Of a DNA stretch of 64,000 bases, positions 1,002 through 50,453 are shown piece after piece (within the stretch, counting starts at the first letter, position 1; each line of letters begins with the position of its first letter). The notes beneath the pieces were generated by a model, which was not told the DNA's origin, made no database searches, and was given only the letters and a program-made list of their open reading frames with translations. Made by a program: the position numbers and the translations under genes. Source of the stretch: Mariniflexile litorale (GTDB lineage: Bacteria > Bacteroidota > Bacteroidia > Flavobacteriales > Flavobacteriaceae); NCBI RefSeq assembly GCF_031128465.2, contig NZ_CP155618.1, positions 124,001 through 188,000 on the forward strand, read 5' to 3'.

Positions 1002-1012
1002 TATTTATTGAC

Positions 1013-4293: not shown

Positions 4294-6768
4294 ATGATTT
4301 TGAAAAAACAATTTACTTTTTTATGGTTTATAAGTTTTCTTTTTGCGACTTCAGTCAATAATGCACAAGAAGGCTTAAGGGCTCCTGCATACCCTTTAGT
4401 TACCCACAATCCAAACTTTAGTATTTGGTCTATGGACTCTGAGCTCAATGGCTCAGCAACTCAACATTGGACAGAGCAAGATCATTCTTTACTTGGTATT
4501 TTAAAAGTTGACAATGAATATTATCGTTTTTTAGGTGCAGAAACCAAAGTTTATGAATCTATTTTAGCTGCTTCTGATGAAAGTGATTACCAAGTAGATT
4601 ACACTGAAAAAAAACCGAATTCTGGTTGGGAAAAAACAAATTTTAATAGTAGTCATTGGAAAAAAGGAGAAGCTCCATTTTGTGATGTTATTAAGGAAGC
4701 TAAAACCATCTGGAAAAGTAACAATCTTTGGTATAGACGCTCTTTTAATTTAAACAATACGAATCTAAAAAAAACGTATTTAAAACTTCGTCATGATGAT
4801 AATGTTATTGTTTATTTAAACGGCAACAAGATTTATGAAACTGAAGGATGGCAACATAGCTATAAATACATTCCCATAGACCAAAATATTATTAAACAAT
4901 TAAAGTCAAAAGATAATGTACTTGCTATTCATGTAAAAAATACAGCAGGAGGTCAGTGGTTAGACGCTGGTTTAGTTATTGAAGCTCCAACTATGCAAAA
5001 TGTATCTTTAAAAAAGGCAAAACAAATCGATGTCATTCTAAATGCAACTCAAACCATATACACATTTGATTGTGATAATGTTGAACTTACTGCTACATTC
5101 ACTTCTCCATTATTGTTAGATGACTTAGATTTAATGAGTCGTCCAATATCTTATTTATCTGTAAAAGTAAAATCAAAAGATAAAAAAGAGCACCAAGCAA
5201 AATTATATATTGGAGCATCTAGCAACATTGCAGTATATACACCTCAACAAGAAATTGTAGTTACTAAATATACACAAAACAATCTTAATATTCTTAAAGC
5301 TGGTACTGTAGAACAACCCAGATTACAAAAAAAAAGTGATGATATGCGTGTAGATTGGGGGCATGCTTATTTAGCTTCTTCAACTACAAATAGTCAACAC
5401 TACATAAGCACCTCTAACACATCACTCCTACCTTTTGTATCTCATGTCAAAATTGACTCAAAAACAGAAATTACCGGTAAAAATTTAGTATTAAATACTA
5501 TTACCAACTTCGGATCTGTAGGAACAGAAGAAACAGGCACTATCGTAATGCTTGGTTATGATGAAGTATACAGCATCAACTATTTTGGATCCCATTTAAA
5601 ACCTTGGTTTAAAAAAGATGGTATATCTATGGATAGCAGTTTAGCAATAGCTTCAAACAACTATAAAAGCATCATAAAACGTGTGGAAACATTTGACAAA
5701 AAAATATATGAAGATTGTTTAAATGCTGGTGGTAAAAAATATGCAGATTTATGCATTTTAGCTTATAGACAAGCCATTGCTGCACATACATTAGTAGAAA
5801 GTCCAGAAGGTGAAATTCTTTTTCTTTCAAAAGAAAATAATAGTGGAGGTTTTATAAATACAGTAGACGTCACCTACCCTTCTGCCCCATTGTTTTTAAT
5901 TTACAATCCCGATTTATTAAAAGGGATGTTAAACGGCATCTTCTATTATAGTGAAAAAAGCGGAAAATGGAACAAACCTTATCCTACACATGATTTAGGT
6001 GTTTATCCAATTGCTACTGGACATATCTATGGAGAAGATATGCCTGTTGAAGAAGCGGGAAATATGATCATATTAACTGCTGCTATTGCACAACAAGAAG
6101 AAAATGCCGACTATGCAAAAAAACATTGGGAAACATTAACCACATGGGCAAACTATTTAACCGAAGAGGGTTTTGATCCAGGCAATCAATTGTGTACTGA
6201 TGATTTTGCTGGCCATTTAGCCCGAAATGCAAATCTTTCTATAAAAGCTATTATAGGAATTGCTTCTTATGGCAAACTTGCTGGCATGTTAGGTGATAAA
6301 GAAACAGAAAAAAAATACATGTCAACAGCAAAAAAATTAGCGAAAGATTGGATGAAAATTGATGCAGATGGTAGTCATTATAGCTTAGCATTTGAAGCTA
6401 AAGGAACATGGAGTCAGAAGTACAATCTAGTTTGGGATGAGATATTAGATTTGAATATTTTTTCAAAATCTATCATGAAAAAAGAAATCAAATATTACCT
6501 AACCAAACAAAACAAATATGGTTTACCTCTAGATAGTAGAAAAACGTATACAAAATCTGATTGGGTAATTTGGACAGCAACTTTAGCTGAAAACGAAGCC
6601 GATTTTGAAGCCTTAGTTGCCCCCATATGGAAATATGCTAATGAAACTTTAGACCGGGTACCAATAAGTGATTGGCACGAAACCACAAATGCTAAAAAAG
6701 TAGGATTTAAAGCTCGCTCTGTTGTTGGAGGTTATTTTATAAAACTTTTAAAGGTTAAAGAGAAATAA
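4294..6768 (+). CDS. DUF4964/DUF5127/DUF4965/DUF1793 protein (glutaminase A-like, six-hairpin fold)
   Basis: An 824-residue secreted protein with a type I signal peptide ending near NNAQ (residue 25). The N-terminal LRAPAYPLVTHNPNFSIWS is the DUF4964 signature. Residues of about 100-235 form an inserted galactose-binding-like beta-sandwich (LWYRRSFNL, VIVYLNGNKIYETEGWQH, DNVLAIHVKN). DUF5127-like, DUF4965-like (YRQAIAAHTLVESPEGEILF, GGFINTVDVTYPSAPLFL) and DUF1793-like (RNANLSIKAIIGIASYGKLA, WVIWTATLAE) parts follow. Fungal relatives are called glutaminase A, but PUL-encoded bacterial members probably act on glycans; the true reaction is not established. The gene precedes the GH92 series by 18 bases and is very likely in the same operon, so a role in trimming the same glycan is plausible. 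Confidence 0.8.
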   Translation: MILKKQFTFLWFISFLFATSVNNAQEGLRAPAYPLVTHNPNFSIWSMDSELNGSATQHWTEQDHSLLGILKVDNEYYRFLGAETKVYESILAASDESDYQVDYTEKKPNSGWEKTNFNSSHWKKGEAPFCDVIKEAKTIWKSNNLWYRRSFNLNNTNLKKTYLKLRHDDNVIVYLNGNKIYETEGWQHSYKYIPIDQNIIKQLKSKDNVLAIHVKNTAGGQWLDAGLVIEAPTMQNVSLKKAKQIDVILNATQTIYTFDCDNVELTATFTSPLLLDDLDLMSRPISYLSVKVKSKDKKEHQAKLYIGASSNIAVYTPQQEIVVTKYTQNNLNILKAGTVEQPRLQKKSDDMRVDWGHAYLASSTTNSQHYISTSNTSLLPFVSHVKIDSKTEITGKNLVLNTITNFGSVGTEETGTIVMLGYDEVYSINYFGSHLKPWFKKDGISMDSSLAIASNNYKSIIKRVETFDKKIYEDCLNAGGKKYADLCILAYRQAIAAHTLVESPEGEILFLSKENNSGGFINTVDVTYPSAPLFLIYNPDLLKGMLNGIFYYSEKSGKWNKPYPTHDLGVYPIATGHIYGEDMPVEEAGNMIILTAAIAQQEENADYAKKHWETLTTWANYLTEEGFDPGNQLCTDDFAGHLARNANLSIKAIIGIASYGKLAGMLGDKETEKKYMSTAKKLAKDWMKIDADGSHYSLAFEAKGTWSQKYNLVWDEILDLNIFSKSIMKKEIKYYLTKQNKYGLPLDSRKTYTKSDWVIWTATLAENEADFEALVAPIWKYANETLDRVPISDWHETTNAKKVGFKARSVVGGYFIKLLKVKEK

Positions 6769-6786: not shown

Positions 6787-9000
6787 ATGAAAATCCTTTT
6801 GAAATCCTTTATTTTATTTCTTGTGTCTACTACATTTTTTTGTTGTAAACCAATTGAAAAACATAACTTAACTAAATACGTTAATCCTTTTATTGGAACT
6901 GGTGGTCACGGACATACATTTCCAGGAGTTAGTGCTTCTTTTGGAATGATACAGCTAAGCCCAAACAATGGACAAGGCGGTTGGGATTGGTGTTCAGGTT
7001 ACCATTATTCAGATTCAATTGTAATAGGCTTTAGTCATTTAAACTTGAGTGGTACTGGTGGAAGCGATTTGAAAGATATTCTATTTATGCCTATAAATAA
7101 AAAAGTTGACTTAACCACTTCGTTCTCAGCTCGAGATGCTCCTTACAGATCCCAATACTCACACCAGAATGAATCTGCAACTTCAGGATATTATAGTGTT
7201 TTTTTGAAAGACCATAATATTAATGTGGAGTTAACCGCAAATTTAAGAACTGCTTTTCACAAATACACGTATAAAAAAAACGATCTTCAGTCTGTAGTAA
7301 TAGATTTAGAAACAACTACTGCTTCTCATATTAGAATCGAAAATAAATTTACTGTATCAGGATATAGATATAGCGAAGGATGGGCAAAAAATCAAAAAGT
7401 GTTTTTTGTTGCAAAATTTTCAAAACCTATAAGTAGAAAACAATTAATTGCAAATGGGAAAATAATTGATTCAGACTATGTAGAAGGTACTAAAACAGCC
7501 ACTCAGTTATTTTTTGAAGAAGAAAATGGATCAACCTTAGAAGCCAGAGTCGCTTATTCCTCAGTAAGTATAGAAAATGCAAAAGAAAATTTAGATTATG
7601 ATAAGAATTTTGATGAAGCTAAAAAAAAAGCTATTAAAAACTGGGATAAAGAACTTAATGATATAGTTGTTGAAACAAAAGTAGATTCACTTAAAACAAT
7701 ATTCTATACATCACTTTATCATGCTAAACTTGCACCCACAACTTTTAGCGATGTAAATGGAGAATTTCGTTTAGAAAATGATAAGATAGCAACTAACAAT
7801 AATTACACAACATATAGTACACTTTCACTTTGGGATACATTTAGGGCAGAACATCCCTTACTTACATTAATAAATCCTGAAAAAGTGGGTGATATGATCA
7901 GTTCTATGCTAGCTTATTTTGATGAACGGAATAAACTTCCGGTTTGGAATCTTTATGCCAATGAAACTAATACGATGACGGGTTACCATTCCATACCAGT
8001 AATCGTTGAAGCTTATATGAAAGGCATACGCAATTTTGATACTGAAAAGGCATTTCAGGCCATTAAAACAACAATGATGCAAAATGAAAGAGGTTTAGAT
8101 CATTATAAAAAATATGGTTATGTTCCTTTTGATTTATTAGATGAATCTGTAACTATTACCTTAGAATATGCTTATGACGACTGGTGTGCGGCTCAAATGG
8201 CGAAAGCTTTAGGTTACAAAGAAGATTACAATTATTTTTTAAATAGAGCTAATAATGCTTATAAATATGTTTTTGATCCTGAAACAAAATTCATGAGAGG
8301 AAAATCTTCAGATGGAGTTAGTTGGAATGAACCTTTTGATCCTTATCGTTCAAAACATCGTAGAGATACCGACTATACCGAAGGCAATGCATGGCAACAT
8401 AGTTGGTTTGTGCTTCATGATACCGAAAACTTTATTAAGATGCATGGTGGCTCTGATAAATTTACCGATATGCTTGGTCAACTATTTGTGCAACCAACAG
8501 AAATCACTGGTGAACATACTTCTCCAGATATTTCGGGTATGGTAGGCCAATATGCTCATGGTAATGAACCTAGTCATCATATTGCATACCTTTTTAATAA
8601 AGCGGGGAAACCTTGGCTTACACAATATTGGGTGAAAAAAATTCTCGATACCCAATACAACACAACACCTAATGGATTAAGTGGTAATGAAGATTGTGGG
8701 CAAATGTCTGCTTGGTATGTTTTTAGTTCAATGGGTATCTATCCTTTTAATCCTGCAAGTGCAACGTATGAAATAGGAACACCACTTTTTGATAAATCAA
8801 CTATTAATTTAGAGAATGGTAAACAATTTATTATAGAAGCCAAAAATGTATCTGATAAAAATTTCTATATACAGGCTATTAAACTTAACGGAGAAAACTA
8901 CAACAAAACCTTTATTACTCACGATCAAATAATTGTAGGTGGTGTTTTAACGTTTGTGATGGGGAGTCAACCAAATAAAAATTGGGGTCTAAAAAACTAA
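6787..9000 (+). CDS. GH92 alpha-mannosidase, lipoprotein (paralog 1)
   Basis: A 737-residue lipoprotein (Cys19 or Cys20 after TTFF). The mature N-terminus begins with YVNPFIGTGGHGHTFPGVS, the classic start of the GH92 N-terminal beta-sandwich, followed by the (alpha/alpha)6 catalytic domain. GH92 enzymes are calcium-dependent inverting exo-alpha-mannosidases. Visible active-site blocks are TEGNAW (Glu532 in the general-acid position, matching Glu533 of Bt3990 as I recall), AHGNEPSHH, and GNEDCGQMSAWY (634-636 Asn-Glu-Asp in the base region). The HGNEPSHH form is the one I associate with alpha-1,2-type GH92 enzymes, but linkage cannot be fixed by eye. It lies 18 bases after the DUF4965 gene. 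Confidence 0.95.
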   Translation: MKILLKSFILFLVSTTFFCCKPIEKHNLTKYVNPFIGTGGHGHTFPGVSASFGMIQLSPNNGQGGWDWCSGYHYSDSIVIGFSHLNLSGTGGSDLKDILFMPINKKVDLTTSFSARDAPYRSQYSHQNESATSGYYSVFLKDHNINVELTANLRTAFHKYTYKKNDLQSVVIDLETTTASHIRIENKFTVSGYRYSEGWAKNQKVFFVAKFSKPISRKQLIANGKIIDSDYVEGTKTATQLFFEEENGSTLEARVAYSSVSIENAKENLDYDKNFDEAKKKAIKNWDKELNDIVVETKVDSLKTIFYTSLYHAKLAPTTFSDVNGEFRLENDKIATNNNYTTYSTLSLWDTFRAEHPLLTLINPEKVGDMISSMLAYFDERNKLPVWNLYANETNTMTGYHSIPVIVEAYMKGIRNFDTEKAFQAIKTTMMQNERGLDHYKKYGYVPFDLLDESVTITLEYAYDDWCAAQMAKALGYKEDYNYFLNRANNAYKYVFDPETKFMRGKSSDGVSWNEPFDPYRSKHRRDTDYTEGNAWQHSWFVLHDTENFIKMHGGSDKFTDMLGQLFVQPTEITGEHTSPDISGMVGQYAHGNEPSHHIAYLFNKAGKPWLTQYWVKKILDTQYNTTPNGLSGNEDCGQMSAWYVFSSMGIYPFNPASATYEIGTPLFDKSTINLENGKQFIIEAKNVSDKNFYIQAIKLNGENYNKTFITHDQIIVGGVLTFVMGSQPNKNWGLKN

Positions 9001-9062
9001 AGACATCTAATTACAAAATTTTTAATAATGTCAATATTATATATTACAATTTAATGAATAGA

Positions 9063-11153
9063 ATGAAGAAACAAATTTTTATTTTAAGTACGTTAAGCTT
9101 TTTCTTAATTTGCTGTAGTACAACTTCTCAAATCAATACAAACGCTGTATCTCCTCCAGCCAAAAAAGTTAATGTCTTTTTAGGTAGCTCTGGAGATCAT
9201 GGGCAAATGTCTCCATCTGCATCATCTCCATTTAATATGCTAAGTATTGGTCCGCAAACTTATTCGCATAATCATACTGGTTATGAATATTACGCTGAAA
9301 GATATGAAGGTTTTACGCATACGCATTTAGAAGGTGTAGGCTGTACAGGAAGTGGAGGAAATATTCTAATAAAACCTGTATTAAACAAAGATATTGATAC
9401 CAAGTTACTCAAAAAAGAGCAGCAAGCAAGCCCTGGTTATTACGAGGTTTCTTTTGAAAATGGGGTACATGCTGCTATGAGTGTAAACCATAATTTTGGA
9501 TTAGAAAGTTATACTTTCCCAAAGGATACCTATGAAAAAGGTTTATACATAGACCTTTCTTTTGCTCTAGCTAACAGATTTATTTCTGAAGAACATACTA
9601 TTAACAACAATGTAATCTCTGGTTGGATAGATACACACACCACTTGTCATAGAGGTGTATATAGGATTTACTATGCATTAGCAGTTTCTAATCTAAACAA
9701 ATTTGAAAAATTAAGTGACCACAAATATTATGCTGGCTTAAATCCGAATACAGATAATACAACAGTACAAATTAGTTTTTCTTCGGTAAATGTTGAATAT
9801 GCTAAAAATAAATTAAGTGATATAAACTTAGAAACGGTAAAAAAAGCTTCAAATCAAGAATGGAATTCACTACTATCATACGTAAAAGTACAAGGTGAAG
9901 ACGATCGTGAAAATTTATTTTACTCACTTTTATATAGAGGTTTACAATCTCCTTACAAAATAAGTGAAAAGGATGGTACTTACAGCGCCATCAATGGAAC
10001 CACTCAAAAAGCTGATTTTGAGGTTTACAATGGATGGGCTATTTGGGACAATTATAGAGAACAATTACCTATGTTGTCTTTATTATACCCAGATAAATAT
10101 GCAGACATTTCAAAATCTATTGCTAACCTCTATAAATATGGAAAAAAAGATTGGTCTACAAGACATGAACCTTCACCTACGGTACGTACTGAACATGCAC
10201 TTGTTGTTTTATTGGATGCATATGAAAAAAAGTATCCGTTAGATTTTCTTCCTATTAAAGATTCTATCATTGCGGAAGTAAACAAATTGAATTTTGGTGC
10301 GCCAGACAAAGCATTAGAATCTTCATATGATTTTTGGGCTGCATCAAAAATAATGGAAATTTTAAAAGATGACAAACTAGCAAAAGCATACCATAATAAA
10401 TCTCTAGATTATAAAAAATACTGGAAAAAAGATTTTGCAGATTTAACTAAAAATGATGTTGACAAAATGCAAGCTAGAGGTTTATATCAAGGAACTATTT
10501 GGCAATATCGCTGGTTTGTTCCTTATGATATTGATGGACTTAAAAATTTAGCTGGTGATGAAAAACAATTCATAAAAGAACTGGATCAGTTTTTTGAGGA
10601 AAATAATTACAATCACGCCAATCAACCAGATTTACAAGTTCCAGGACTCTATAATGCTACTAAACAACCATGGAAATCTCAAAAATTATTTAGAAACATA
10701 TTGTTAGATACTGTTGTTCAAAATTATTTTAATGATAATAGTAAAGGGACAGATCCTTATATAGGAAAAATATACAAAAATCAACCCAGAGCATATCTAA
10801 GAACCATGGATGATGATGCTGGAACCATGTCGTCATGGTTTGTAATGCGAAGTATCGGTTTATCACCTGTAAATATTGGCACCCCTGTTTATTATCTAAC
10901 TGCACCAATCTTCAAAAAAGTGAGTATCAGTTATCCTAATGGCAAAAAATTTGAAATTGAAGTGAAAAACTACCATAAAGACCATTTTTATATAAAATCC
11001 GCCACTTTAAACGGAAAACCATTAAATCAAAATTGGTTACACCATAAAGACATCATAAAGGGTGGTAAATTAATTATTGAAACCTCTGAAACTCCTAATA
11101 CTAAATGGGGTATTGAAAACACATTTGTTACAAAAATAAAATCATCAAATTAA
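9063..11153 (+). CDS. GH92-family protein with Gln replacing the catalytic acid; candidate mannosyl-phosphate (phosphodiester) mannosidase
   Basis: I place the start at 9063 (696 residues) because it gives a clean lipoprotein signal peptide (MKKQIFILST..FLICC, Cys17 or Cys18). An ATG at 9054 is possible, and the frame is open further upstream into the previous gene. The protein has the GH92 two-domain layout (GSSGDHGQMSPSASSPF near the N-terminus, DDDAGTMSSWFV at 583-594), so the base region with Asp583-585 is kept. At the general-acid position it reads LYQGTIW, with Gln476 where the other six paralogs here have Glu. From memory, the Cellulosimicrobium GH92 that hydrolyses mannose-alpha-1-phospho-6-mannose likewise has Gln there, since a phosphate leaving group needs no protonation. 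The PhoA-type phosphatase starting 5 bases downstream fits that role. Activity is inferred; an inactive binding protein is the alternative. Confidence 0.85.
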   Translation: MKKQIFILSTLSFFLICCSTTSQINTNAVSPPAKKVNVFLGSSGDHGQMSPSASSPFNMLSIGPQTYSHNHTGYEYYAERYEGFTHTHLEGVGCTGSGGNILIKPVLNKDIDTKLLKKEQQASPGYYEVSFENGVHAAMSVNHNFGLESYTFPKDTYEKGLYIDLSFALANRFISEEHTINNNVISGWIDTHTTCHRGVYRIYYALAVSNLNKFEKLSDHKYYAGLNPNTDNTTVQISFSSVNVEYAKNKLSDINLETVKKASNQEWNSLLSYVKVQGEDDRENLFYSLLYRGLQSPYKISEKDGTYSAINGTTQKADFEVYNGWAIWDNYREQLPMLSLLYPDKYADISKSIANLYKYGKKDWSTRHEPSPTVRTEHALVVLLDAYEKKYPLDFLPIKDSIIAEVNKLNFGAPDKALESSYDFWAASKIMEILKDDKLAKAYHNKSLDYKKYWKKDFADLTKNDVDKMQARGLYQGTIWQYRWFVPYDIDGLKNLAGDEKQFIKELDQFFEENNYNHANQPDLQVPGLYNATKQPWKSQKLFRNILLDTVVQNYFNDNSKGTDPYIGKIYKNQPRAYLRTMDDDAGTMSSWFVMRSIGLSPVNIGTPVYYLTAPIFKKVSISYPNGKKFEIEVKNYHKDHFYIKSATLNGKPLNQNWLHHKDIIKGGKLIIETSETPNTKWGIENTFVTKIKSSN

Positions 11154-11158
11154 AAATT

Positions 11159-12280
11159 ATGAACTTAAAAAAAATTGTTATTCCTTTTATCGTACTAGGT
11201 TTGACTTCATGCAAATCTACAACCTCAGTTAACAAAGAAATTAATAATACTCCTAAAAACGTTATCCTATTAATTAGTGATGGTACAGGATTATCGCAAA
11301 TTTCCTCTGCTTATTATTACAAAGATTCTACTCCAAATTATAGCCGATTTGAAAACATAGGACTCATCAAAACATCTTCTTCGCAACAAGATATAACTGA
11401 TTCTGCTGCAGGCGCGACTGCTTTTTCTTGTGGAGTCAAAACATATAATGGAGCCATAGGCGTTGCAAATGATTCAACAAACGTAGAAAATATAATAGAG
11501 TTAGTTTCATCCAAAAATATAAAAACAGGAGTAATTGCTACTTTAGCCATAACTCATGCAACACCTGCTAGTTTCTATGGTCATACTTTAAGCAGGGATT
11601 CTCAAGAAAAAATCGCATTGCAATTAACACAATCAAGAGTCGACTTTTTTGCAGGAGGTGGTTTAAAATATTTTAATGATCGTAAGGATGGACAAAATTT
11701 ACTTAAAACTTTCGAAGAAAATGAATTTGATGTTAATACCAATGCTTTAAGTGATTTTAGCACAATTGAATCAAGTAAAAAAGTTGGTTTCCTATTATCA
11801 AAAGAAGGAATGCCCACTATGGAAGAAGGCCGAGGAGATTTCTTATCTAATGCCACTGAACTTGGTATTCAATTTTTAAACAAAGATAATTCAAGTTTTT
11901 TTTTAATGAGTGAAGGGTCCCAAATAGATTGGGGTGGTCACGCTAATAATGCTTCATGGTTAATATCAGAACTTATTGACTTTGATAATCTAATTGGGAA
12001 AGTATTGGATTTTGCTGAAAAAGATGGTAATACTTTGGTAGTTGTAACTTCTGACCATGAAACAGGTGGTTTTACTTTAGCCGCAAAAAAGAAAAAAAGA
12101 GAAGATGGCAGTGAATATCGAGATTACAGTGAAATTGACCCTACTTTTTCAACAGGGGGGCATTCGGCTACCTTAATCCCTGTATTTGCTTATGGTCCAG
12201 GTTCTGAAGAATTTAAAGGAGTTTATGAAAATAATGCTATTTTTCATAAAATACTTAAAGTTACCAACTGGGGAAATTAA
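11159..12280 (+). CDS. Alkaline phosphatase (PhoA superfamily), lipoprotein
   Basis: A 373-residue lipoprotein (lipobox LTSC, Cys18). The PhoA signature is complete to the eye: NVILLISDGTG with metal-binding Asp41, DSAAGATA with Asp81 and nucleophile Ser82, HATPASFYGH, SEGSQIDWGGHANN, TSDHETGGFT and GGHSATL, which supply the Asp, His and Glu ligands of the zinc and magnesium sites. It should hydrolyse phosphomonoesters in the periplasm or on the surface. It begins 5 bases after the Gln-variant GH92, the tightest spacing in the array, which argues for a joint job: removing the phosphate that remains on mannose once a mannosyl-1-phosphate cap has been cleaved. A general phosphate-scavenging role is less likely in this context but not excluded. 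Confidence 0.93.
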   Translation: MNLKKIVIPFIVLGLTSCKSTTSVNKEINNTPKNVILLISDGTGLSQISSAYYYKDSTPNYSRFENIGLIKTSSSQQDITDSAAGATAFSCGVKTYNGAIGVANDSTNVENIIELVSSKNIKTGVIATLAITHATPASFYGHTLSRDSQEKIALQLTQSRVDFFAGGGLKYFNDRKDGQNLLKTFEENEFDVNTNALSDFSTIESSKKVGFLLSKEGMPTMEEGRGDFLSNATELGIQFLNKDNSSFFLMSEGSQIDWGGHANNASWLISELIDFDNLIGKVLDFAEKDGNTLVVVTSDHETGGFTLAAKKKKREDGSEYRDYSEIDPTFSTGGHSATLIPVFAYGPGSEEFKGVYENNAIFHKILKVTNWGN

Positions 12281-12343: not shown

Positions 12344-14608
12344 ATGAGTAACACTAAAAATTTGTTTAAAACTGCTTTAAGCATTGTTTTATTTATAATA
12401 TGCACAAATACATGGTCACAAAAACTTAAACCGGTAGACTATGTAAATACACATATGGGAAATATAAGCCATCTTTTAGTGCCTACTTTTCCTACCATAC
12501 ATTTACCAAATAGTATGTTAAGGGTGTATCCTGAACGTGGTGATTATACAGGAGATTTATTACATGGCTTACCACTTATTGTTACGAGCCACCGTGGAAG
12601 TTCTGCTTTTAATTTAAGCCCATTTCAAGGTACCGAAAATGACATAAAATCGGTTTTAAATTATAGTTACGATTTGGAAAAATCGACTCCATACTCCTAT
12701 TTTGTCTACTTAGATGATTTACAAATTTCAGTGAATTATGGCATATCACATCAAGCAGCTCGTTACGAAATAGAATTTGAAAACAATAAAGAATCGTACC
12801 TTATCTTAAATTCTCGCAATGGTGAAATACAATGGAACGGAAAAGCTATTTCTGGTTACCAAAATTTAGATAACAATACCAAGGTCTACCTTTATTTAGA
12901 ACCTGAGCAAAAACCAGAATCTGTCTCCACATTCAGTAATGATGGTTTAATTAAGAGTAACATTTCACAAGGCAAGAATGCTTCATTAATTTTAAAATAT
13001 GCCAAAGGGAAGCGAACTACTTCTATTAATTACGGTGTTTCTTTTATTGATGAAAAACAAGCACAGCAAAACATGAAACGTGAAGTACTAAAGAAAACGG
13101 TTGCTGATTTACAAAAAGAAGGAATGGAAATATGGAATAAAGCTCTCGGGAAAATCTCTGTTGAAGGAGGTAGTCATGATGATAAAACAGTGTTTTACTC
13201 ATCCTTGTATCGTAGTTATGAAAGGCCTGTTTGTATCTCAGAAGAAGGCAGATATTTTAGTGCTTTTGATGAAAAAGTTCATGATGATATAGGTCGTGAT
13301 TTTTATACTGATGATTGGATTTGGGATTCGTACCGAGCACATCACCCATTACGTATTTTAACAGATCCAAGCAAGGAAGAAGATATCTTGCATTCTTTTT
13401 TATTAATGGCTGAACAAATGGACAATCATTGGATGCCCACTTTTCCAGAAATTACAGGAGATAGTCGCCGAATGAATTCCAACCATGCCGTAGCATCTTT
13501 TATCGATGCCTATAGAAAAGGACTAAAAAAATTCGATTTAAACAATGCCTTTCTAGCTTCAAAAAATGCAATCACTCAAAAAACGTTAGCACCTTGGTCT
13601 GGAAAACCCGCAGGAGAATTGGATTTATTTTATAAAAATCACGGTTACATTCCTGCATTAAAAGATGGAGAAAAAGAAACAATTCCTGAGGTATCTTCTT
13701 TTGAAAAACGTCAACCTGTAGCTGTAACCTTGGGTACATCTTATGATGAGTGGTGTTTATCTGAAATAGCCGAGGAGTTAGGAAAGAAAGAAGAACGTGA
13801 TTATTTCAGACAGAAATCATTCAATTACCGAAATCTATTCAATTCTAAAACTCAGTTTTTTCACCCTAAAGATAACGAAGGTCATTTTATAGAACCCTTT
13901 GATTATCGTTTTTCTGGAGGTATCGGTGCACGTGATTCTTATGGTGAAAATAATGGATGGACTTACCGCTGGGATGTGCAACACAATATTGCAGACTTAA
14001 TAGTACTTATGGGTGGAAGAGAAAATTTTATTCAGAATCTCAATGATCTATTTTCAACGCCTATGGGTCGAGGTAAACGTGAGTTTTACACGCAGCTTCC
14101 AGATCAAACAGGTAATGTTGGTCAATTTTCTATGGCAAACGAACCTTCCTTGCATATTCCGTACCTGTACAATTATGCAGGACAGCCATGGAAAACTCAA
14201 AAACGAATTAGAAAACTGTTAAAAGATTGGTTTAGAAATGATTTAATGGGTGTGCCTGGTGATGAAGATGGAGGAGGCATGTCGTCTTTTGTGGTATTCT
14301 CTCAATTAGGTTTTTACCCTGTAACTCCAGGTTTACCAATATATAATATAGGAAGTCCTGTTTTCGAAAAATCTGTAGTTCATTTAGAAAATGGAAAGAA
14401 ATTCACCATTATCGCAAAAAACACTTCTGAAGAAAATAAATATATCCAATCGGCAAAACTAAATAACAAAACATGGAACAAGCCATGGTTTACCCATGAT
14501 GACATAATTAACGGAGGTACTTTGGAACTTGAAATGGGTGATAAAGCAAATAAAAAATGGGGGAGTTTATCTAAAGATACCCCGCCTTCTTTTACACTTA
14601 AAAAATAA
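12344..14608 (+). CDS. GH92 alpha-mannosidase, divergent subtype (paralog 3)
   Basis: 754 residues with a type I signal peptide (cleavage near NTWSQ). The N-terminus, VDYVNTHMGNISHLLVPTFP, departs from the PFIGTGGHGHTFPG form of other GH92s, and the +1 region is replaced with a RGDYTGDLLHGLPLIV-like stretch. The acid block reads GENNGW with Glu535 at the correct four-residue distance from Trp. The usual HGNEPSHH block is MANEPSLHIPYLY, lacking the first His, and the base block is GDEDGGGMSSF (Asp640-Glu641-Asp642). Catalysis is therefore plausible but the leaving-group subsite differs, suggesting another linkage or decoration. It lies 63 bases after the phosphatase on the same strand. Confidence 0.92.
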   Translation: MSNTKNLFKTALSIVLFIICTNTWSQKLKPVDYVNTHMGNISHLLVPTFPTIHLPNSMLRVYPERGDYTGDLLHGLPLIVTSHRGSSAFNLSPFQGTENDIKSVLNYSYDLEKSTPYSYFVYLDDLQISVNYGISHQAARYEIEFENNKESYLILNSRNGEIQWNGKAISGYQNLDNNTKVYLYLEPEQKPESVSTFSNDGLIKSNISQGKNASLILKYAKGKRTTSINYGVSFIDEKQAQQNMKREVLKKTVADLQKEGMEIWNKALGKISVEGGSHDDKTVFYSSLYRSYERPVCISEEGRYFSAFDEKVHDDIGRDFYTDDWIWDSYRAHHPLRILTDPSKEEDILHSFLLMAEQMDNHWMPTFPEITGDSRRMNSNHAVASFIDAYRKGLKKFDLNNAFLASKNAITQKTLAPWSGKPAGELDLFYKNHGYIPALKDGEKETIPEVSSFEKRQPVAVTLGTSYDEWCLSEIAEELGKKEERDYFRQKSFNYRNLFNSKTQFFHPKDNEGHFIEPFDYRFSGGIGARDSYGENNGWTYRWDVQHNIADLIVLMGGRENFIQNLNDLFSTPMGRGKREFYTQLPDQTGNVGQFSMANEPSLHIPYLYNYAGQPWKTQKRIRKLLKDWFRNDLMGVPGDEDGGGMSSFVVFSQLGFYPVTPGLPIYNIGSPVFEKSVVHLENGKKFTIIAKNTSEENKYIQSAKLNNKTWNKPWFTHDDIINGGTLELEMGDKANKKWGSLSKDTPPSFTLKK

Positions 14609-14609
14609 A

Positions 14610-14624
14610 CTTAAAACGATAAAA
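14610..14624. promoter_or_regulatory. Candidate LacI-family operator (CTTAAAACGATAAAA)
   Basis: The 15-mer CTTAAAACGATAAAA sits in the 31-base gap before the GH92 gene that starts at 14640. The same 15-mer recurs exactly at 40553-40567, just upstream of the GH78-like gene. It shares the AAAACGAT core with the longer palindromes at 16944, 28945 and 46149. Binding by the LacI regulators encoded at 46242-48396 is inferred. Confidence 0.5.
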
Positions 14625-14639
14625 AACAATTCAATCCGT

Positions 14640-16928
14640 ATGAACATTAAATTATTAATTGTCATTTTATTTTTTTCTTCTTTTTCTGTAGTTGCTCAAC
14701 CAAAATTAAAAAACCTAGTAGATTATGTTAACACACTACAAGGAACGAATTCTAAACACGAATTAACTAGAGGAAACACCTACCCTACTACGGCGCTTCC
14801 TTTTGGAATGCATACATGGACACCCCAAACAGGAAATAATGGAGATGGTTGGAAGTATCAATATTTTAAGAAAACAATAAGAGGTTTTCAACAAGCACAT
14901 CAATGTAGTTCTTGGAGTAATGATTATGCCGTTTTTTCTTTAATGCCTGTCACTGAAAAGCTAACCTTGAATGAAAATGAAAGAGCTTCAAAATTTAGCC
15001 ATGAAAATGAAATAGCTAAACCGCACTACTACAGAGTATTATTAGATAATGGTATTACTACTGAAATAGCTCCAACAGAACGTGGTGCACATTTACGGTT
15101 TAAATTTCCCAAAAAACAAGATGCCTATCTTGTATTAGATGGTTATACAGGGGTTAGCGAAGTAAACATAGACGTTAAAAAGCATCGCATTACAGGCTAT
15201 GTAAATAACGGACGTGGTATGCAACGCTTCAATGGAAATTTTAAAAACTATTTTGTAATTCAGTTTGATAAACCTTTCAGCGCACAAGGTATTTGGGACA
15301 ATAATTCAAATAAAAAATGGGACAATAAACTTTCCGGAAAAGGAAAAGGCATTGGAGCTTATCTCAAATTTAAACAAGGACAATCTGTACAAGTAAAAGT
15401 AGCCTCGTCATACATTAATTTAGAGCAAGCTGAATTAAATTTAAATTCAGAACTAGAAAACCATAAAAATCTAGAATCAACAAAGAGAGCTGCAAAAAAT
15501 GTATGGAACCAACAACTCAATAAAATAGTTGTTGAAGGAGGTACCGAAGAACAGTTCAAAACGTTTTATTCTTGTTTTTTTAGAGCGAGTTTATTTTCCC
15601 GTAAGTTCTATGAGTTAAATGAAAAAGGGGAACCTTATTATTACAGTCCGTATGATGGTAAAATCCATGATGGTTATATGTATACTGACACGGGTTTTTG
15701 GGACACTTTTAGAGGTCAATTTCCACTAAACGCTTTAATGGAGCCCACGATGCATGGGCAATATGTAGCTGCATTATTAGACGCTTACGACCAATGCGGA
15801 TGGCTACCCTCTTGGTCTTTTCCTAGTGAAGCTGGAAGTATGATTGGTAATCATGCTATTTCATTATTAGCTGATGCATGGGCAAAGGATTTAAAAACAT
15901 TTGATCCTCAAAAAGCCTTAGATGCATATTTTCATGAAGCTACTAATAAAGGCCCTTGGGGTCCCGCCAATGGCCGTGGTAATTGGAAAGATTATTTTAC
16001 TTTAGGATACATACCTTATCCTGATGTTGGAGAAGCAACGGCCAAAACTTTAGAATATGCTTATGATGATTTTTGCGGATATGCGTTAGCAGAAATGACA
16101 AACAATAACTTTTATAAAGATATTTTCTCAAAACAAATGTACAATTACAAAAATGTGTACGATCCTAAAGTTGGATTTATGAGAGGAAAACAAAAAGATG
16201 GAAATTGGGTGCCTAATTTTGATCCTTATGAATGGGGTGGTCCATTTACCGAAGGGAATGCCTGGCATTATGTATGGTCTGTTTTTCAAGATCCAAAAGG
16301 ACTGATTGATCTTATGGGAGGTGAAGAAAATTTTAATAAAAAATTAGATTCCGTTTTTACCGTTCCAAATACCGTACATGTGGGAACCTATGGTGGTAAA
16401 ATACATGAAATGACCGAAATGGAAATGGCAAACATGGGGCAGTATGCACACGGCAACCAGCCTATACAACATATGCCTTACCTCTATAATTATTCTGGGC
16501 AACCATGGAAAGCACAAGCCAGAACTAGAGATATTATGGAAAAATTATATAATTCAACTGAAAATGGATACCCTGGTGATGAAGACCAAGGACAAACCTC
16601 CTCATGGTATGTACTCAGCGCTATGGGATTTTATAGTGTTTGTCCTGGAACTAATGAATATGTTATGGGAAGTCCCGTTTTTGAAAAAACAACCATCCAT
16701 CTTGAAAATGGAAAAACATTTGTAATCCATGCCAATGGAAATTCTAAAGAAAATGTGTACATAGACTCCGCCCAATTAAATAATAAAAACTTCACTCGTA
16801 GTTATATAACGTACCAAGAATTGGTTGCTGGTGGTATTCTAAATTTGGAAATGAGTAAAACTCCAAATATAATAAGAGGAAGTAAGGATGCAGACAAACC
16901 TTTTTCCTTATCAGATTCTAAAAAGTAA
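14640..16928 (+). CDS. GH92 alpha-mannosidase (paralog 4)
   Basis: The start at 14640 (762 residues) is chosen because it yields a proper signal peptide (MNIKLLIVILFF..SVVAQ); the frame is open upstream, overlapping the previous gene. The mature protein starts LVDYVNTLQGTNSKHELTRGNTYPT, a variant GH92 beginning, and continues with LPFGMHTWTPQTGNNGDGW. Active-site blocks are FTEGNAWHYVW (Glu538, general-acid position), AHGNQPIQHMPYLYNY and GDEDQGQTSSWY (Asp647-Glu648-Asp649). The NQPIQHM form instead of NEPSHH is shared with the paralog at 17998 and marks a different leaving-group subsite from paralogs 1 and 6. This should be an exported, calcium-dependent exo-alpha-mannosidase of unknown linkage preference. 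Confidence 0.95.
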   Translation: MNIKLLIVILFFSSFSVVAQPKLKNLVDYVNTLQGTNSKHELTRGNTYPTTALPFGMHTWTPQTGNNGDGWKYQYFKKTIRGFQQAHQCSSWSNDYAVFSLMPVTEKLTLNENERASKFSHENEIAKPHYYRVLLDNGITTEIAPTERGAHLRFKFPKKQDAYLVLDGYTGVSEVNIDVKKHRITGYVNNGRGMQRFNGNFKNYFVIQFDKPFSAQGIWDNNSNKKWDNKLSGKGKGIGAYLKFKQGQSVQVKVASSYINLEQAELNLNSELENHKNLESTKRAAKNVWNQQLNKIVVEGGTEEQFKTFYSCFFRASLFSRKFYELNEKGEPYYYSPYDGKIHDGYMYTDTGFWDTFRGQFPLNALMEPTMHGQYVAALLDAYDQCGWLPSWSFPSEAGSMIGNHAISLLADAWAKDLKTFDPQKALDAYFHEATNKGPWGPANGRGNWKDYFTLGYIPYPDVGEATAKTLEYAYDDFCGYALAEMTNNNFYKDIFSKQMYNYKNVYDPKVGFMRGKQKDGNWVPNFDPYEWGGPFTEGNAWHYVWSVFQDPKGLIDLMGGEENFNKKLDSVFTVPNTVHVGTYGGKIHEMTEMEMANMGQYAHGNQPIQHMPYLYNYSGQPWKAQARTRDIMEKLYNSTENGYPGDEDQGQTSSWYVLSAMGFYSVCPGTNEYVMGSPVFEKTTIHLENGKTFVIHANGNSKENVYIDSAQLNNKNFTRSYITYQELVAGGILNLEMSKTPNIIRGSKDADKPFSLSDSKK

Positions 16929-16995: not shown

Positions 16996-17976
16996 ATGAA
17001 AAAAACGCTTATCTTATTATTTATCATTAGCATATTAAATTCTTGTGACGAGTCAAAAAAAAAGCAGTCATTATCTGGAAACCCCATATTTTCAGGATGG
17101 TATGCTGACCCTGAAGGGATTATATTTGAAAATAAATATTGGGTTTACCCTACTTATTCTGCTCCTTATGAAAAACAAGTTTTTTTAGATGCATTTTCTT
17201 CTAAGGACCTTACTAATTGGAATAAGCATGAAAAAATAATAGATACTAGTACTGTAAAATGGGCACATAAAGCTATGTGGGCGCCTTCTATTATAAAAAA
17301 AGACAATAAATACTTTCTCTTTTTTGGAGCAAACGATATTCAGAATGATCATGAAATTGGAGGCATTGGTGTCGCAATTTCAACTACTCCAGAAGGTCCT
17401 TATAAAGATTATTTAGGAAAACCTTTAATAAATAAGTTTCATAATGGAGCACAACCTATAGATCAGTTTATATTTAAAGATAATAATGATCAGCACTATC
17501 TTATATATGGAGGTTGGGGACATTGTAATATTGCCAAGCTTAATGATGATTTCTCCGGCTTTTTTCCCTTTGATACTGGTGAAACATTTAGGGAGATTAC
17601 TCCAGAAGGTTATATTGAAGGGCCTTTTATGTTTATTCGAAACGGAAAATATTATTTTATGTGGTCCGAAGGCGGATGGACTGGTCCCGATTATAGTGTT
17701 GCCTATGCCATAGCTGATTCGCCTATGGGTCCGTTTAAACGGATTGGAAAAATATTAGAACAAAATAAAGAAATAGCTACTGGAGCTGGGCATCATTCTG
17801 TAATTATAACTCCTACAGATGATAAATACTATATAGTATACCATCGTCGACCATTAACCGAAACTGATGAAAATTCCAGAGTAATCTGTATGGATGAAAT
17901 GCTTTTTGATGAAAATGGATACATCATTCCCGTAGTCATTACAAATGAAGGTGTTAAACTAAATAAATTAAATTAA
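16996..17976 (+). CDS. GH43-like five-bladed beta-propeller glycosidase, lipoprotein
   Basis: A 326-residue lipoprotein (Cys17 after ILNS). The GH43 catalytic set is recognisable: WYADPEG with Asp38 (base), AQPIDQFIF with Asp156 (pKa modulator) and YIEGPFMF with Glu208 (acid). Repeated propeller-blade phrases such as DNKYFLFFGAND, DQHYLIYGGW and NGKYYFMWSEGG support the fold. Known GH43 activities include arabinofuranosidase, xylosidase and galactosidase; which applies here cannot be told. Its place between two GH92 genes, with its own operator upstream at 16944, suggests that it removes a side-chain sugar such as an arabinose, xylose or galactose decoration from the mannan. Assignment to a subfamily needs a search. 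Confidence 0.85.
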   Translation: MKKTLILLFIISILNSCDESKKKQSLSGNPIFSGWYADPEGIIFENKYWVYPTYSAPYEKQVFLDAFSSKDLTNWNKHEKIIDTSTVKWAHKAMWAPSIIKKDNKYFLFFGANDIQNDHEIGGIGVAISTTPEGPYKDYLGKPLINKFHNGAQPIDQFIFKDNNDQHYLIYGGWGHCNIAKLNDDFSGFFPFDTGETFREITPEGYIEGPFMFIRNGKYYFMWSEGGWTGPDYSVAYAIADSPMGPFKRIGKILEQNKEIATGAGHHSVIITPTDDKYYIVYHRRPLTETDENSRVICMDEMLFDENGYIIPVVITNEGVKLNKLN

Positions 17977-17997: not shown

Positions 17998-20292
17998 ATG
18001 AAAAAACCATTATCAACACTCATTGCATTTATTGCATTTTTTCAATTTTTACAAGCTCAAAACAATCAAATAGCTAAAATTGACAATCCCGTAGATTGGG
18101 TAAATCCATTAATGGGAACGGATTCTGACCCAGGCTTATCGAATGGTAACACCTACCCTGTAATAGCGATGCCTTGGGGTATGAATTTTTGGACTCCTCA
18201 AACGGGTAAAATGGGAGATGGATGGGCTTATACATATAATGCTCATAAAATAAAAGGCTTTAAACAAACTCACCAACCATCACCTTGGATGAACGATTAT
18301 GGTCAATTTTCAATCATGCCAATTAGTGGAAAATTACGGTTTAAGCAAGAGGAACGTGAAAGTTGGTTTTCACATAAGGCTGAAACAGTTTCTCCCTATT
18401 ATTATAGTGTTTATTTGGCTGACCATGATATTACTACTGAAATTACTCCAACAGAAAGAGCAGCAAGATTCCGTTTTACCTTTCCCGAAAACAAAGAATC
18501 ATATATCATTGTTGATGCTTTTGACAGAGATTCTTACGTAAAAATAATTCCTGAAGAGAGAAAGATAATTGGTTATACGACTCGTAATAGCGGTGGTGTC
18601 CCAGATAATTTTAAAAATTATTTCGTAATTACATTCGATACAGAATTTGAAATATCAAAAACATTTAGTGAAGCTAAATTGACGGATTCTTTAGAATCTA
18701 ATTCCAAACATGCTGGCGCAGCCATTGGTTTTAAAACCAAAAAAGGACAAATCGTAAATGCCCAAGTAGCTTCCTCTTTTATTAGCTACGAACAAGCTGA
18801 AAGAAACCTTAAAGAAATTGGTAATAATGATTTTGATCAATTAAAAGAAAAAGGAAAAAAAATATGGAATCATGAGTTAAGTAAAATTGAAATTGAAGGA
18901 GCGACCCCAAACCAAATTGGAACTTTTTATTCTTGTTTATACCGTTCTTTACTGTTCCCTAGAAAGTTTTTTGAATACGATGCTAATGGAAAAGTAATAC
19001 ATTACAGTCCATACAATGGTGAAATTCGTGACGGATATATGTTTACGGATACGGGATTTTGGGATACATTCAGATCTTTATTCCCTTTCTTAAATTTAAT
19101 GTATCCAGAATTAAGTGCACAAATGCAAGAAGGTTTGTCTAATGCATACGATGAAAGTGGATGGTTACCAGAATGGGCAAGTCCTGGTTTACGTAATATT
19201 ATGGTTGGTAATAATTCAGCTTCTGTAGTTTCCGATGCATATTTAAAAAATAATGGATCATACAAATATGATATTGATAATCTATATCAAGCATTAATTC
19301 ACGGTGCAAATAATGCAGGCCCTATGACAGCTGTTGGTCGTGCAGGAGCTCCATCATATAACAAATTAGGATATGTTCCTTTTGATATTGGACTTAATGA
19401 AACTGCTGCAAGAACTTTAGAGTATGCGTATGACGATTTTGCTATTTATCAATTGGCTAAAGCTTTAAAAAAGCCTCAAAAAGAAATTAACCTATATAAA
19501 GAACGCAGTTTAAATTATAAAAATTTATATGATTCTGAACACAAATTAATGCGCGGCAAAGATAGTAAAGGCCAATGGAGAACACCTTTTAGCCCCTTTG
19601 ATTGGGGTGGTGATTTTACGGAAGGAAATAGCTGGCATTACTCCTGGTCTGTTTTCCATGATATGCAAGGTTTAATTGATTTAATGGGTGGTCAAGAAGC
19701 ATTTGTTTCTCAATTAGATGAAGTTTTTTCATTACCGCCTGTTTTTGGTGATAAATATTATGGCGGAGTTATTCATGAAATTCGCGAAATGCAAATTGCT
19801 GACATGGGACAATATGCACATGGTAACCAACCAATTCAGCACATGATTTATTTGTATAATTATGCAGGACAACCTTGGAAAACACAATATTGGGTTCGTG
19901 AAACTATGAATAGAATGTACAACCCCAATCCAGATGGTTATTGTGGCGATGAAGATAATGGACAAACATCTGCTTGGTATGTATTCTCTGCTATGGGATT
20001 CTATCCTGTAGCACCTGCAACAGACCAATATGTGCTTGGAGCACCATTATTTAAAAAGACAACTATTCACCTTGAAAATGGTAAAAAAGTGGTTATTAAT
20101 GCTGAAAATAATAACGCTGATAACCGTTATATAAAAACGATGAAATTTAATGGGAAAAATCATTCTAAAAACTGGATAAGCTATAAAGAGTTAATAAAAG
20201 GAGCTGTTTTAGATTTTGAAATGACCGACAAACCAAATAAAGAAAGAGGAATTTCTAAAAAAGATTACCCCTACTCGCTTTCTAATGATTAA
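17998..20292 (+). CDS. GH92 alpha-mannosidase (paralog 5)
   Basis: 764 residues with a type I signal peptide (MKKPLSTLIAF..LQAQ, cleavage near residue 21). GH92 start is VDWVNPLMGTDSDPGLSNGNTYP. Blocks: FTEGNSWHYSW with Glu542 as the candidate acid, AHGNQPIQHMIYLYNY, and GDEDNGQTSAWY with Asp651-Glu652-Asp653 in the base region. It is the closest relative of paralog 4 within the window (shared PWGM/PFGM..FWTPQTG, NQPIQHM, and GYMxTDTGFWDTFR). The pair probably arose by duplication, with the GH43-like gene between them. It is 21 bases from the GH43-like gene and ends the first segment of the array, before a strong terminator. Confidence 0.95.
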   Translation: MKKPLSTLIAFIAFFQFLQAQNNQIAKIDNPVDWVNPLMGTDSDPGLSNGNTYPVIAMPWGMNFWTPQTGKMGDGWAYTYNAHKIKGFKQTHQPSPWMNDYGQFSIMPISGKLRFKQEERESWFSHKAETVSPYYYSVYLADHDITTEITPTERAARFRFTFPENKESYIIVDAFDRDSYVKIIPEERKIIGYTTRNSGGVPDNFKNYFVITFDTEFEISKTFSEAKLTDSLESNSKHAGAAIGFKTKKGQIVNAQVASSFISYEQAERNLKEIGNNDFDQLKEKGKKIWNHELSKIEIEGATPNQIGTFYSCLYRSLLFPRKFFEYDANGKVIHYSPYNGEIRDGYMFTDTGFWDTFRSLFPFLNLMYPELSAQMQEGLSNAYDESGWLPEWASPGLRNIMVGNNSASVVSDAYLKNNGSYKYDIDNLYQALIHGANNAGPMTAVGRAGAPSYNKLGYVPFDIGLNETAARTLEYAYDDFAIYQLAKALKKPQKEINLYKERSLNYKNLYDSEHKLMRGKDSKGQWRTPFSPFDWGGDFTEGNSWHYSWSVFHDMQGLIDLMGGQEAFVSQLDEVFSLPPVFGDKYYGGVIHEIREMQIADMGQYAHGNQPIQHMIYLYNYAGQPWKTQYWVRETMNRMYNPNPDGYCGDEDNGQTSAWYVFSAMGFYPVAPATDQYVLGAPLFKKTTIHLENGKKVVINAENNNADNRYIKTMKFNGKNHSKNWISYKELIKGAVLDFEMTDKPNKERGISKKDYPYSLSND

Positions 20293-20316
20293 ATATAATT
20301 AAATCTAGTTAATAGT

Positions 20317-20366
20317 ATCTTGGGTTCTTATCGTTTATCATAATCTAGAACCCAAGATTTTTTTTA
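20317..20366 (+). terminator. Rho-independent terminator
   Basis: ATCTTGGGTTCT at 20317-20328 pairs perfectly with AGAACCCAAGAT at 20347-20358, an 18-base loop lies between, and a run of T follows (20358-20365). It should end most transcription from the upstream GH92 genes and so separates the array from the GH92/GH78 genes beginning at 20385. The loop contains TTATCGTTTAT, weakly like the operator core. Confidence 0.85.
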
Positions 20367-20384
20367 CTTATCAAAATAAATATT

Positions 20385-25583: not shown

Positions 25584-25588
25584 TTACA

Positions 25589-32454: not shown

Positions 32455-32465
32455 AATATAAAATC

Positions 32466-46062: not shown

Positions 46063-46148
46063 AAGTATTCTATTTATTATTTTAAAAGACTTGAAATATG
46101 TTTCACTATTATTTAACTTTAACACGCATTAATTTATCTTTACAATAT

Positions 46149-47267: not shown

Positions 47268-47367
47268 TTAAGATTGTATTCAAATTCTTATATTAGAGTA
47301 TTTAAATTAGAATTACCCTGCTAAAATGACTTTGTAAAATTATAAAATCATTCTTTAATTGAATTAA

Positions 47368-50354: not shown

Positions 50355-50453
50355 TTGGTTAATGGTTATATACTTTATTTGTAGTTGTTCTCTCTTTTAT
50401 GAAAAATACAGACCACATATTGAAAGTTTTAGTCAATAGAAATACTTTTTAAA

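Follow-up and report, generated by a model that had tools for sequence, protein, structure and literature searches.

The window analysed here, a 64,000-nucleotide stretch of the Mariniflexile litorale genome (contig NZ_CP155618.1, positions 124,001 to 188,000), carries a long, operon-like run of plus-strand glycan genes. Among them is a glycoside hydrolase family 92 (GH92) protein with Gln in place of the general-acid Glu, here called Gln-GH92, followed directly by a PhoA-type alkaline phosphatase, here called PhoA. Glycosidases stand together with SusC-SusD pairs, as in a polysaccharide utilization locus, and the gaps between genes from 4294 to 28285 measure 5 to 92 bases, taking 14640 as one of the starts. 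Two F5/8-type-domain proteins follow the second SusC-like/SusD pair on the plus strand (Table 1). A Pfam scan (PF07971 and PF17678) places seven GH92 genes in the window and eleven in the 4.52-Mb, single-contig genome (12 match rows, two of them from the Gln gene). A preliminary description of this DNA had assigned Glu to six of the seven window proteins and Gln476 to one. Our alignment bears this out, and Gln-GH92 is alone among the eleven, the ten other GH92 proteins of the genome having Glu in this column.

Table 1. Features of the Gln-GH92 locus, in window coordinates.
Feature	Position	Strand	Basis or remark
End of SusC-like receptor (cut by the window) and SusD	159..2632	+	Pfam SusD; SusD itself 1013-2632
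GtaA-type six-hairpin protein	4294..6768	+	Pfam PF16335
Glu-type ordinary GH92, upstream of Gln-GH92	6787..9000	+	Pfam; TEGNAW
Gln-type GH92, 696 aa, likely lipoprotein, CcMan5 clade	9063..11153	+	Pfam, PDB relatives, trees; lipobox by eye
Gln476 codon (CAA), general-acid position	10488..10490	+	Aligned with CcMan5 Gln536 (2xsg sequence index)
Base block Thr581-Met582-Asp583-Asp584-Asp585	10803..10817	+	MD(D/N)DA common to CcMan5
PhoA-type alkaline phosphatase, 373 aa, likely lipoprotein, TAB5 type	11159..12280	+	PF00245
Ser82, predicted PhoA nucleophile	11402..11404	+	TDSAAGATAFSCG aligned to TDSASGATAFSCG of TAB5 alkaline phosphatase
Glu-type ordinary GH92, third gene of conserved triad	12344..14608	+	Orthologues after PhoA in L013, L014, L037
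Glu-type ordinary GH92 (start perhaps near 14640)	14529..16928	+	Pfam; TEGNAW
GH43 glycosidase	16996..17976	+	Pfam
Two Glu-type ordinary GH92 (17998-20292, 20385-22718)	17998..22718	+	Pfam
Two GH78-type rhamnosidases (22761-25583, 25589-28285)	22761..28285	+	Pfam
SusC-like receptor and SusD	29167-34409	+	Pfam

Gln-GH92 has both the N-terminal and the catalytic GH92 domain (PF17678, 118 bits; PF07971, 290 bits). We took the ATG at 9063 as its start; the list of open reading frames (ORFs) offers a longer TTG start at 8982. In the alignment, the column of Gln476 holds Glu in all 31 ordinary GH92 rows and in all nine rows of a sister group, here called Glu-type sisters. The Glu general acid that marks GH92 is absent from Gln-GH92, and CcMan5 of Cellulosimicrobium cellulans is the same exception: the preliminary description had named a phosphodiester-cleaving Cellulosimicrobium GH92 with Gln at this position, and Gln536 of CcMan5 does align with Gln476. 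The Asp583-585 base region is kept, as had been stated, in the context RTMDDDAG. The motif originally proposed, Gln four residues before a Trp, stands in part. The Gln is real; the Trp varies among relatives, and Y475-Q476-G477-T478 is invariant instead in 25/25 aligned relatives, as are the base block and many further positions. For a wider view we used the best 80 of 146 confirmed relative loci, with flanks of up to 10 kb (less than 9 kb of sequence on one side in 16 of them). All 80, fetched by similarity, hold an ORF of 600-760 amino acids with YQGT, which is the independent fact; the 87 Gln rows of the alignment were chosen by that string, and their agreement (87/87) is by construction. 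Position 581 is Thr in all 87 Bacteroidota-type Gln rows, in CcMan5 and in the Streptomyces protein described below, and Glu in the nine Glu-type sister rows, which also have Glu at 476.

The closest PDB sequences to Gln-GH92 are those of CcMan5 (also CcGH92_5; 4aq0 and 2xsg), both with the single sequence (E 1e-67) and with a profile (E 2e-89), and its predicted model superimposes on CcMan5 with a TM score of 0.85-0.86, compared to 0.73-0.81 for other GH92 structures. Two trees, both computed without the general-acid column, group Gln-type GH92, CcMan5 and the Glu-type sisters apart from ordinary GH92. Support was SH-aLRT 99 in a 73-row tree with 29 of the 87 Gln rows, and UFBoot 100 / SH-aLRT 99 in a 46-row tree with 14 of them, which also omits a Persicobacter protein, three Glu-type sisters and eight ordinary GH92 rows. 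Gln-type proteins of Streptomyces and Novosphingobium fall in the same group, as does that of Persicobacter in the 73-row tree. Thus the kinship with phosphodiester GH92 that had been put forward as a check was recovered, with the Glu-type sisters inside the group as well. Blocks common to Gln-GH92 and CcMan5 are YQGT, DLQ/DIQ and MD(D/N)DA(G), and both are without the SHH block of ordinary GH92. Nearly all rows of the group share Asp45, Trp325, Arg375, Glu377, Tyr475, Asp523 and Met582 against ordinary GH92, whereas Gln476 is confined to the Gln-type rows and CcMan5; the Glu-type sisters lack it, and 8/8 of them read YEGT. From these sequence patterns, positions 476 and 581 may jointly decide whether phosphate or an ordinary alcohol is the leaving group.

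Two papers describe CcMan5 as active on the Man-PO4-Man linkage (PMC5930347, PMC9522356), and a title cited in the latter (Tiels 2012) indicates that it was developed for mannose-6-phosphate on yeast-produced lysosomal enzymes. An alpha-1,2-mannosidase is reported to halt at phosphorylated mannose (PMC5992200).

The neighbouring phosphatase begins 5 bases past the Gln-GH92 stop, as first described, and is a PF00245 protein (239 bits) with the Asp-Ser-Ala block of the active site kept; it is the sole PF00245 gene found in the genome. We take Ser82 in this block to be the nucleophile. PhoA is 70.7% identical (263/372) to the Antarctic TAB5 alkaline phosphatase (2iuc, 2w5v, 2w5x), which it also resembles in length, nucleophile block and start. 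TAB5 is known as a cold-active enzyme, whereas the window gene lies in a mannosidase locus. By eye, the N-termini of Gln-GH92 and PhoA look lipoprotein-like (LICC and LTSC), by what we assume to be the lipobox criterion, and because both start in this way the two proteins may share a compartment. The triad Gln-GH92 - PhoA - GH92 is kept in Flavivirga (L013), Maribacter polysiphoniae (L014) and Confluentibacter (L037), with PhoA 77-83% and the third gene 80-84% identical to the window proteins and with differing upstream genes; the SusC end in the window is 79.6% identical over 333 amino acids to a SusC-cluster protein of L014.

The expectation that Gln-type GH92 and PhoA co-occur beyond chance was not borne out as a matter of adjacency in the relative loci. 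As controls we used 40 loci around other GH92 genes, mostly outside SusC-SusD loci (SusC in 3/40), and the phosphatase scan models were built from few sequences each, so that distant phosphatases may be missed. PhoA lay within about 10 kb of Gln-GH92 in 3/80 relatives, all in one subclade, compared to 0/40 controls (Fisher 0.29), and we rejected PhoA as a general partner. A control match at L192 (25 bits) was discarded as a sulfatase-like ORF. Across 397 genomes of the family, TAB5-type PhoA is present in 4 of the 8 with Gln-GH92 and in 19 of the 389 others (p 5e-4), at a cut of E <= 1e-145 that was set after the list was seen; in three genomes (G143, G144, G329) the two genes show regional linkage at 26.5 and 44 kb.

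The commonest partner of Gln-GH92 is instead a DUF218 protein, encoded beside SusC-SusD in 46/80 relative loci and in 0/40 controls (p 1e-11), a contrast that partly reflects the locus type of the controls. A frequent plan is sigma/anti-sigma genes, SusC, SusD, DUF218 and Gln-GH92, the putative sigma pair being assigned by eye and similarity. Such loci, for example that of Flavobacterium frigoris (L016, with DUF218 at 8729-9988), resemble the window in their close Gln-GH92 and SusC-SusD context, and differ in having DUF218 instead of PhoA and fewer other glycosidases adjoining. DUF218 also precedes Gln-GH92 in Novosphingobium, an alphaproteobacterium, and in Persicobacter, whereas eight Glu-type sister loci (seven with SusC) gave no DUF218 match. 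GDPD genes are found in 15/80 relative loci, all 15 with DUF218, and in 0/40 controls (p 0.001). Purple acid phosphatase genes are found in 4/80 (three with DUF218) and 0/40, and lie directly downstream of Gln-GH92 (L038 and L041 by Pfam, L042 and L044 by homology). PI-PLC follows Gln-GH92 directly in Persicobacter (L164) and occurs in two Hymenobacter loci (L060, L062). None of the PhoA-bearing relative loci has DUF218, and 50/80 loci hold at least one of DUF218, GDPD, purple acid phosphatase and PhoA.

Among the 397 genomes, locus-type DUF218 is present in 6 of the 8 with Gln-GH92 and in 2 of the 389 others (p 1.5e-10), a count that excludes a partial match in G168. The DUF218 and PhoA counts both stand for fewer independent events, as two of the eight genomes share one genus and another two share one. 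In G143, G144 and G329 DUF218 lies beside its own SusC-SusD, apart from Gln-GH92. The window genome, in which neither PF02698 (DUF218) nor the locus-type DUF218 profile has a match, is one of the two Gln-GH92 genomes without it and has PhoA adjoining Gln-GH92; in G301, the second such genome, a 48% PhoA relative stands at a distance of 15 kb.

The locus DUF218 proteins share an invariant ARHTTTN block (24/24 rows). A fold search with DUF218 gave no match at E <= 0.001; E. coli YdcF came third (E 0.035, probability 0.99), a weak agreement with the Pfam name that is silent on function, and a profile search of PDB sequences returned chance-level matches only. Work on the DUF218 family in E. coli describes a putative Thr-His-Glu catalytic triad in SanA that is important for function, and more enterobacterial common antigen (ECA) on loss of ElyC, above all the ECA-PG form (PMC12176290), which, going by a title in the references of PMC12419801, is the phosphoglyceride-linked form. 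From its gene neighbourhood we would guess that the locus DUF218 is a phosphatase or phosphodiesterase.

Some loci met in this survey are recorded here for their own sake. In G236, a genome without a close Gln-GH92, a DUF218 gene lies with SusC-SusD and a second SusC-SusD pair (L219:640-19901), flanked by two purple acid phosphatases and two GDPD-like genes (one Pfam-confirmed); the cluster looks like one for phosphorus scavenging. A protein of about 290 amino acids with a signal-like start recurs near SusC-SusD, DUF218 and Gln-GH92 in L067 (967-1842) and 13 other loci, from Mucilaginibacter relatives and Hymenobacter; two members scanned had no Pfam match. Proteins of 733 and 736 amino acids, also without a Pfam match, lie near Gln-GH92 at L014:7768-9966 and L142:5462-7669.

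In Streptomyces sp. NBC_01558, a Gln-GH92 and a class A acid-phosphatase (PAP2) domain are joined in one 2295-amino-acid protein (WP_326844251.1; L163:6896-13780, plus strand), annotated as a single coding sequence in its record. Gln-GH92 (Q560) is followed by carbohydrate-binding modules, fn3 and the PAP2 domain at 1891-1994. The GH92 part is 67% identical to CcMan5 over 615 columns, and a PDB comparison of the phosphatase part gives matches to class A acid phosphatases (E 6e-14). The motifs that we take to define that class, KX6RP, PSGH and RX5HX3D, appear as KNHYGYQRP, PSGH and NRIVLGFHYPLD. Like the window, this protein pairs Gln-GH92 with a phosphatase; it differs in being one polypeptide and in having a PhoN/PAP2-type enzyme, not PhoA. 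It is the strongest single argument for a two-step idea, and it is one example: in the plasmid collection, most of the fused protein was found in one record only, the query's own. A Glu-type Streptomyces GH92, the single one inspected, has a 1034-amino-acid frame.

Collectively, these observations are consistent with a model in which Gln-GH92 is a CcMan5-type mannosyl-phosphodiester hydrolase that would remove an alpha-mannose linked through its anomeric carbon to phosphate. Because phosphate leaves well, a Glu general acid would be dispensable and Gln476 could stand in its place, with the Asp base block and the GH92 fold retained. The product would be either a glycan carrying a phosphomonoester or a free phospho-sugar. 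In the window lineage the adjacent, probably co-transcribed PhoA lipoprotein would then strip the phosphate, after which the neighbouring ordinary GH92 and other glycosidases could proceed; in most relatives, the next step would probably fall to DUF218, a purple acid phosphatase or an acid-phosphatase domain of the same polypeptide. Taken as a whole, CcMan5-type decapping by Gln-GH92 followed by dephosphorylation by PhoA in the window lineage is the best explanation that we have, and we consider it rather probable. The decap-then-dephosphorylate module of the preliminary description survives as a recurrent theme, backed by the Streptomyces fusion and the purple acid phosphatases, of which the window is one variant; it does not survive with PhoA as the defining partner. 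A wider proposal is that Gln-type GH92 are the signature of a system, spread across phyla, that consumes mannosyl-phosphodiester glycans or glycolipids by combining a constant decapping enzyme with an interchangeable phosphate-removing one (DUF218, PhoA, purple acid phosphatase or fused domain). We offer it tentatively, as one that may hold but that we would sooner doubt.

Several observations, besides the rarity of PhoA adjacency, weigh against the decapping model. Overall identity to CcMan5 is about 25%, and CcMan5 is an Actinomycete enzyme, whereas the window enzyme belongs to a SusC-SusD locus with a separate PhoA. At 38-40% identity, the Glu-type sisters are closer kin of the window protein than is CcMan5, and on the 46-row tree one gain and two losses of Gln cost as many changes (three) as three gains. 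Because of this closeness and this equal parsimony, membership in the CcMan5 clade alone does not settle specificity. Two Gln-type proteins depart from Thr at position 581: that of Novosphingobium has Gly there and that of Persicobacter has Ala. The active-site loops of the predicted model have pLDDT below 50, and Thr581 and Arg375 are candidates for a phosphate pocket from sequence only. In 30/80 relative loci none of PhoA, purple acid phosphatase, DUF218 and GDPD lies within about 10 kb. Finally, the GDPD and PI-PLC neighbours in relatives point to other possible phosphodiester substrates.

These last neighbours are the basis of a reading in which Gln-GH92 cuts the mannosyl phosphodiester of a lipid or small head group (glycosylphosphatidylinositol (GPI), phosphoinositide or glycerophospho-glycan), not phosphomannan, and many of the loci serve phosphorus or inositol scavenging. 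It draws on the GDPD genes that accompany DUF218, the PI-PLC genes of Persicobacter and Hymenobacter, the presence of PI-PLC in 6/8 Glu-type sister loci, an inositol oxygenase near the Catenovulum Glu-type sister and the purple acid phosphatases and GDPD around the G236 DUF218 locus. In the window, however, neither GDPD nor PI-PLC turned up among the ORFs and the locus is rich in glycosidases, and we regard this reading as unlikely. A somewhat more credible doubt, although still on the improbable side, concerns PhoA: it could have belonged to the GH92 locus earlier and independently, for phosphate monoester removal or phosphate supply, and have come to lie next to Gln-GH92 by a cluster merger without a shared pathway. 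In L143 (G144) PhoA lies with GtaA, GH92 and GH43 orthologues while Gln-GH92 is 44 kb off in another locus, and in L154 (G169) it adjoins a 67% orthologue of the 12344 gene without a Gln enzyme, G169 having no close Gln-GH92 relative (best match only E 3e-29). As these loci hold PhoA without the Gln enzyme, PhoA does not depend on it, and the two arrangements suggest that PhoA is the older inhabitant of the mannosidase locus and that Gln-GH92 joined later. Such an order is compatible with a locus already exposed to phosphate that later acquired decapping; it is compatible with coincidence too. The few PhoA-adjacent relatives and the fetched TAB5-type PhoA loci, with GH92 in the stretch of 3/15, agree with a merger. 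Retention of the triad in four genomes despite differing upstream genes, the unrelated phosphatases that adjoin or are fused to Gln-GH92 elsewhere, and the regional linkage in G143, G144 and G329 argue for a functional tie.

Two further readings concern the enzyme itself. Gln-GH92 might be an alpha-mannosidase that uses another good leaving group or proton donor and does not cleave phosphodiesters, since R375, E377, W325 and MD(D/N)DA also occur in the Glu-type sisters and are not phosphodiester-specific; the confinement of Gln476 to Gln-type rows and CcMan5, and of Thr581 to most of them, together with the frequent phosphorus-enzyme neighbours, makes this quite improbable. That Gln-GH92 is a catalytically dead binding protein seems highly improbable: its general acid is missing, and in ordinary Bt3990 Gln or Ala at the acid position is reported to cost much, not all, of the activity (PMC10167667), but the base block and many positions are invariant in relatives and CcMan5, with its own Gln, is reported active.

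The Glu-type sister loci have a character of their own. Those of L123-L129 hold a further GH92 (7/7), GH125 (5/7) and PI-PLC (6/7), with GH28 in L124 (Pfam); the Catenovulum locus (L161) has GH28 and the inositol oxygenase. They are possible glycosyl-inositol-phospholipid loci. In Asticcacaulis (L227:4896-7193), an ordinary GH92 (GNDDAG) lies within an inositol-catabolism group of iolG, iolC and iolD, with an ABC transporter.

The minus strand of the window encodes a GH78-like protein, a ROK protein, an esterase-like protein, a Glu-type GH92 and, adjoining it, a metal-independent alpha-mannosidase of GH125 (44638-46125). Two tandem regulators at 46242-48396 (minus strand) have a nearly identical start that, from its motif, is putatively LacI-like. 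At 48996-57136 (minus strand) a PAP2-family protein (28.7 bits) adjoins two tandem FG-GAP / ASPIC-UnbV proteins (1110 and 1117 amino acids) and SusC-SusD-like genes.

The yeast alpha-mannan loci of Bacteroides and Salegentibacter (PMC9213526) likewise have several GH92 with GH125 nearby, but the window genome has a single GH76 match, outside the window and below the family cut-off, and has GH78 and GH43 instead. A yeast-mannan reading of the window is thus unsupported, although GH125 is present; the text of that paper contains no word beginning 'phosph'. A diatom sulfated-mannan locus (PMC13063451) similarly sets GH92 alongside enzymes that take a charged substituent off C6, with sulfate and sulfatases where the window has phosphate and a phosphatase. 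Because GH92, GH125, GH78 and GH43 occur without GH76, the gene content suggests a mannose-, perhaps rhamnose-containing, phosphate-bearing glycan as the window substrate; fungal rhamnomannan and an algal glycan are guesses. Lipid head groups are allowed as substrates given the GDPD and PI-PLC company in relatives. The portions of open-licence full texts that were searched yielded no description of CcMan5-type enzymes in Bacteroidota loci, or of such a locus pairing one with a phosphatase.

If the system of interchangeable partners is real, it would give DUF218 a function, as a phosphatase or phosphodiesterase acting on phospho-glycans, and would give the TAB5 phosphatase a natural role. Many candidate decapping enzymes would become available, and the function of DUF218 would become testable. 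Phosphorylated mannose glycans or lipids would then be a food source with dedicated uptake loci.

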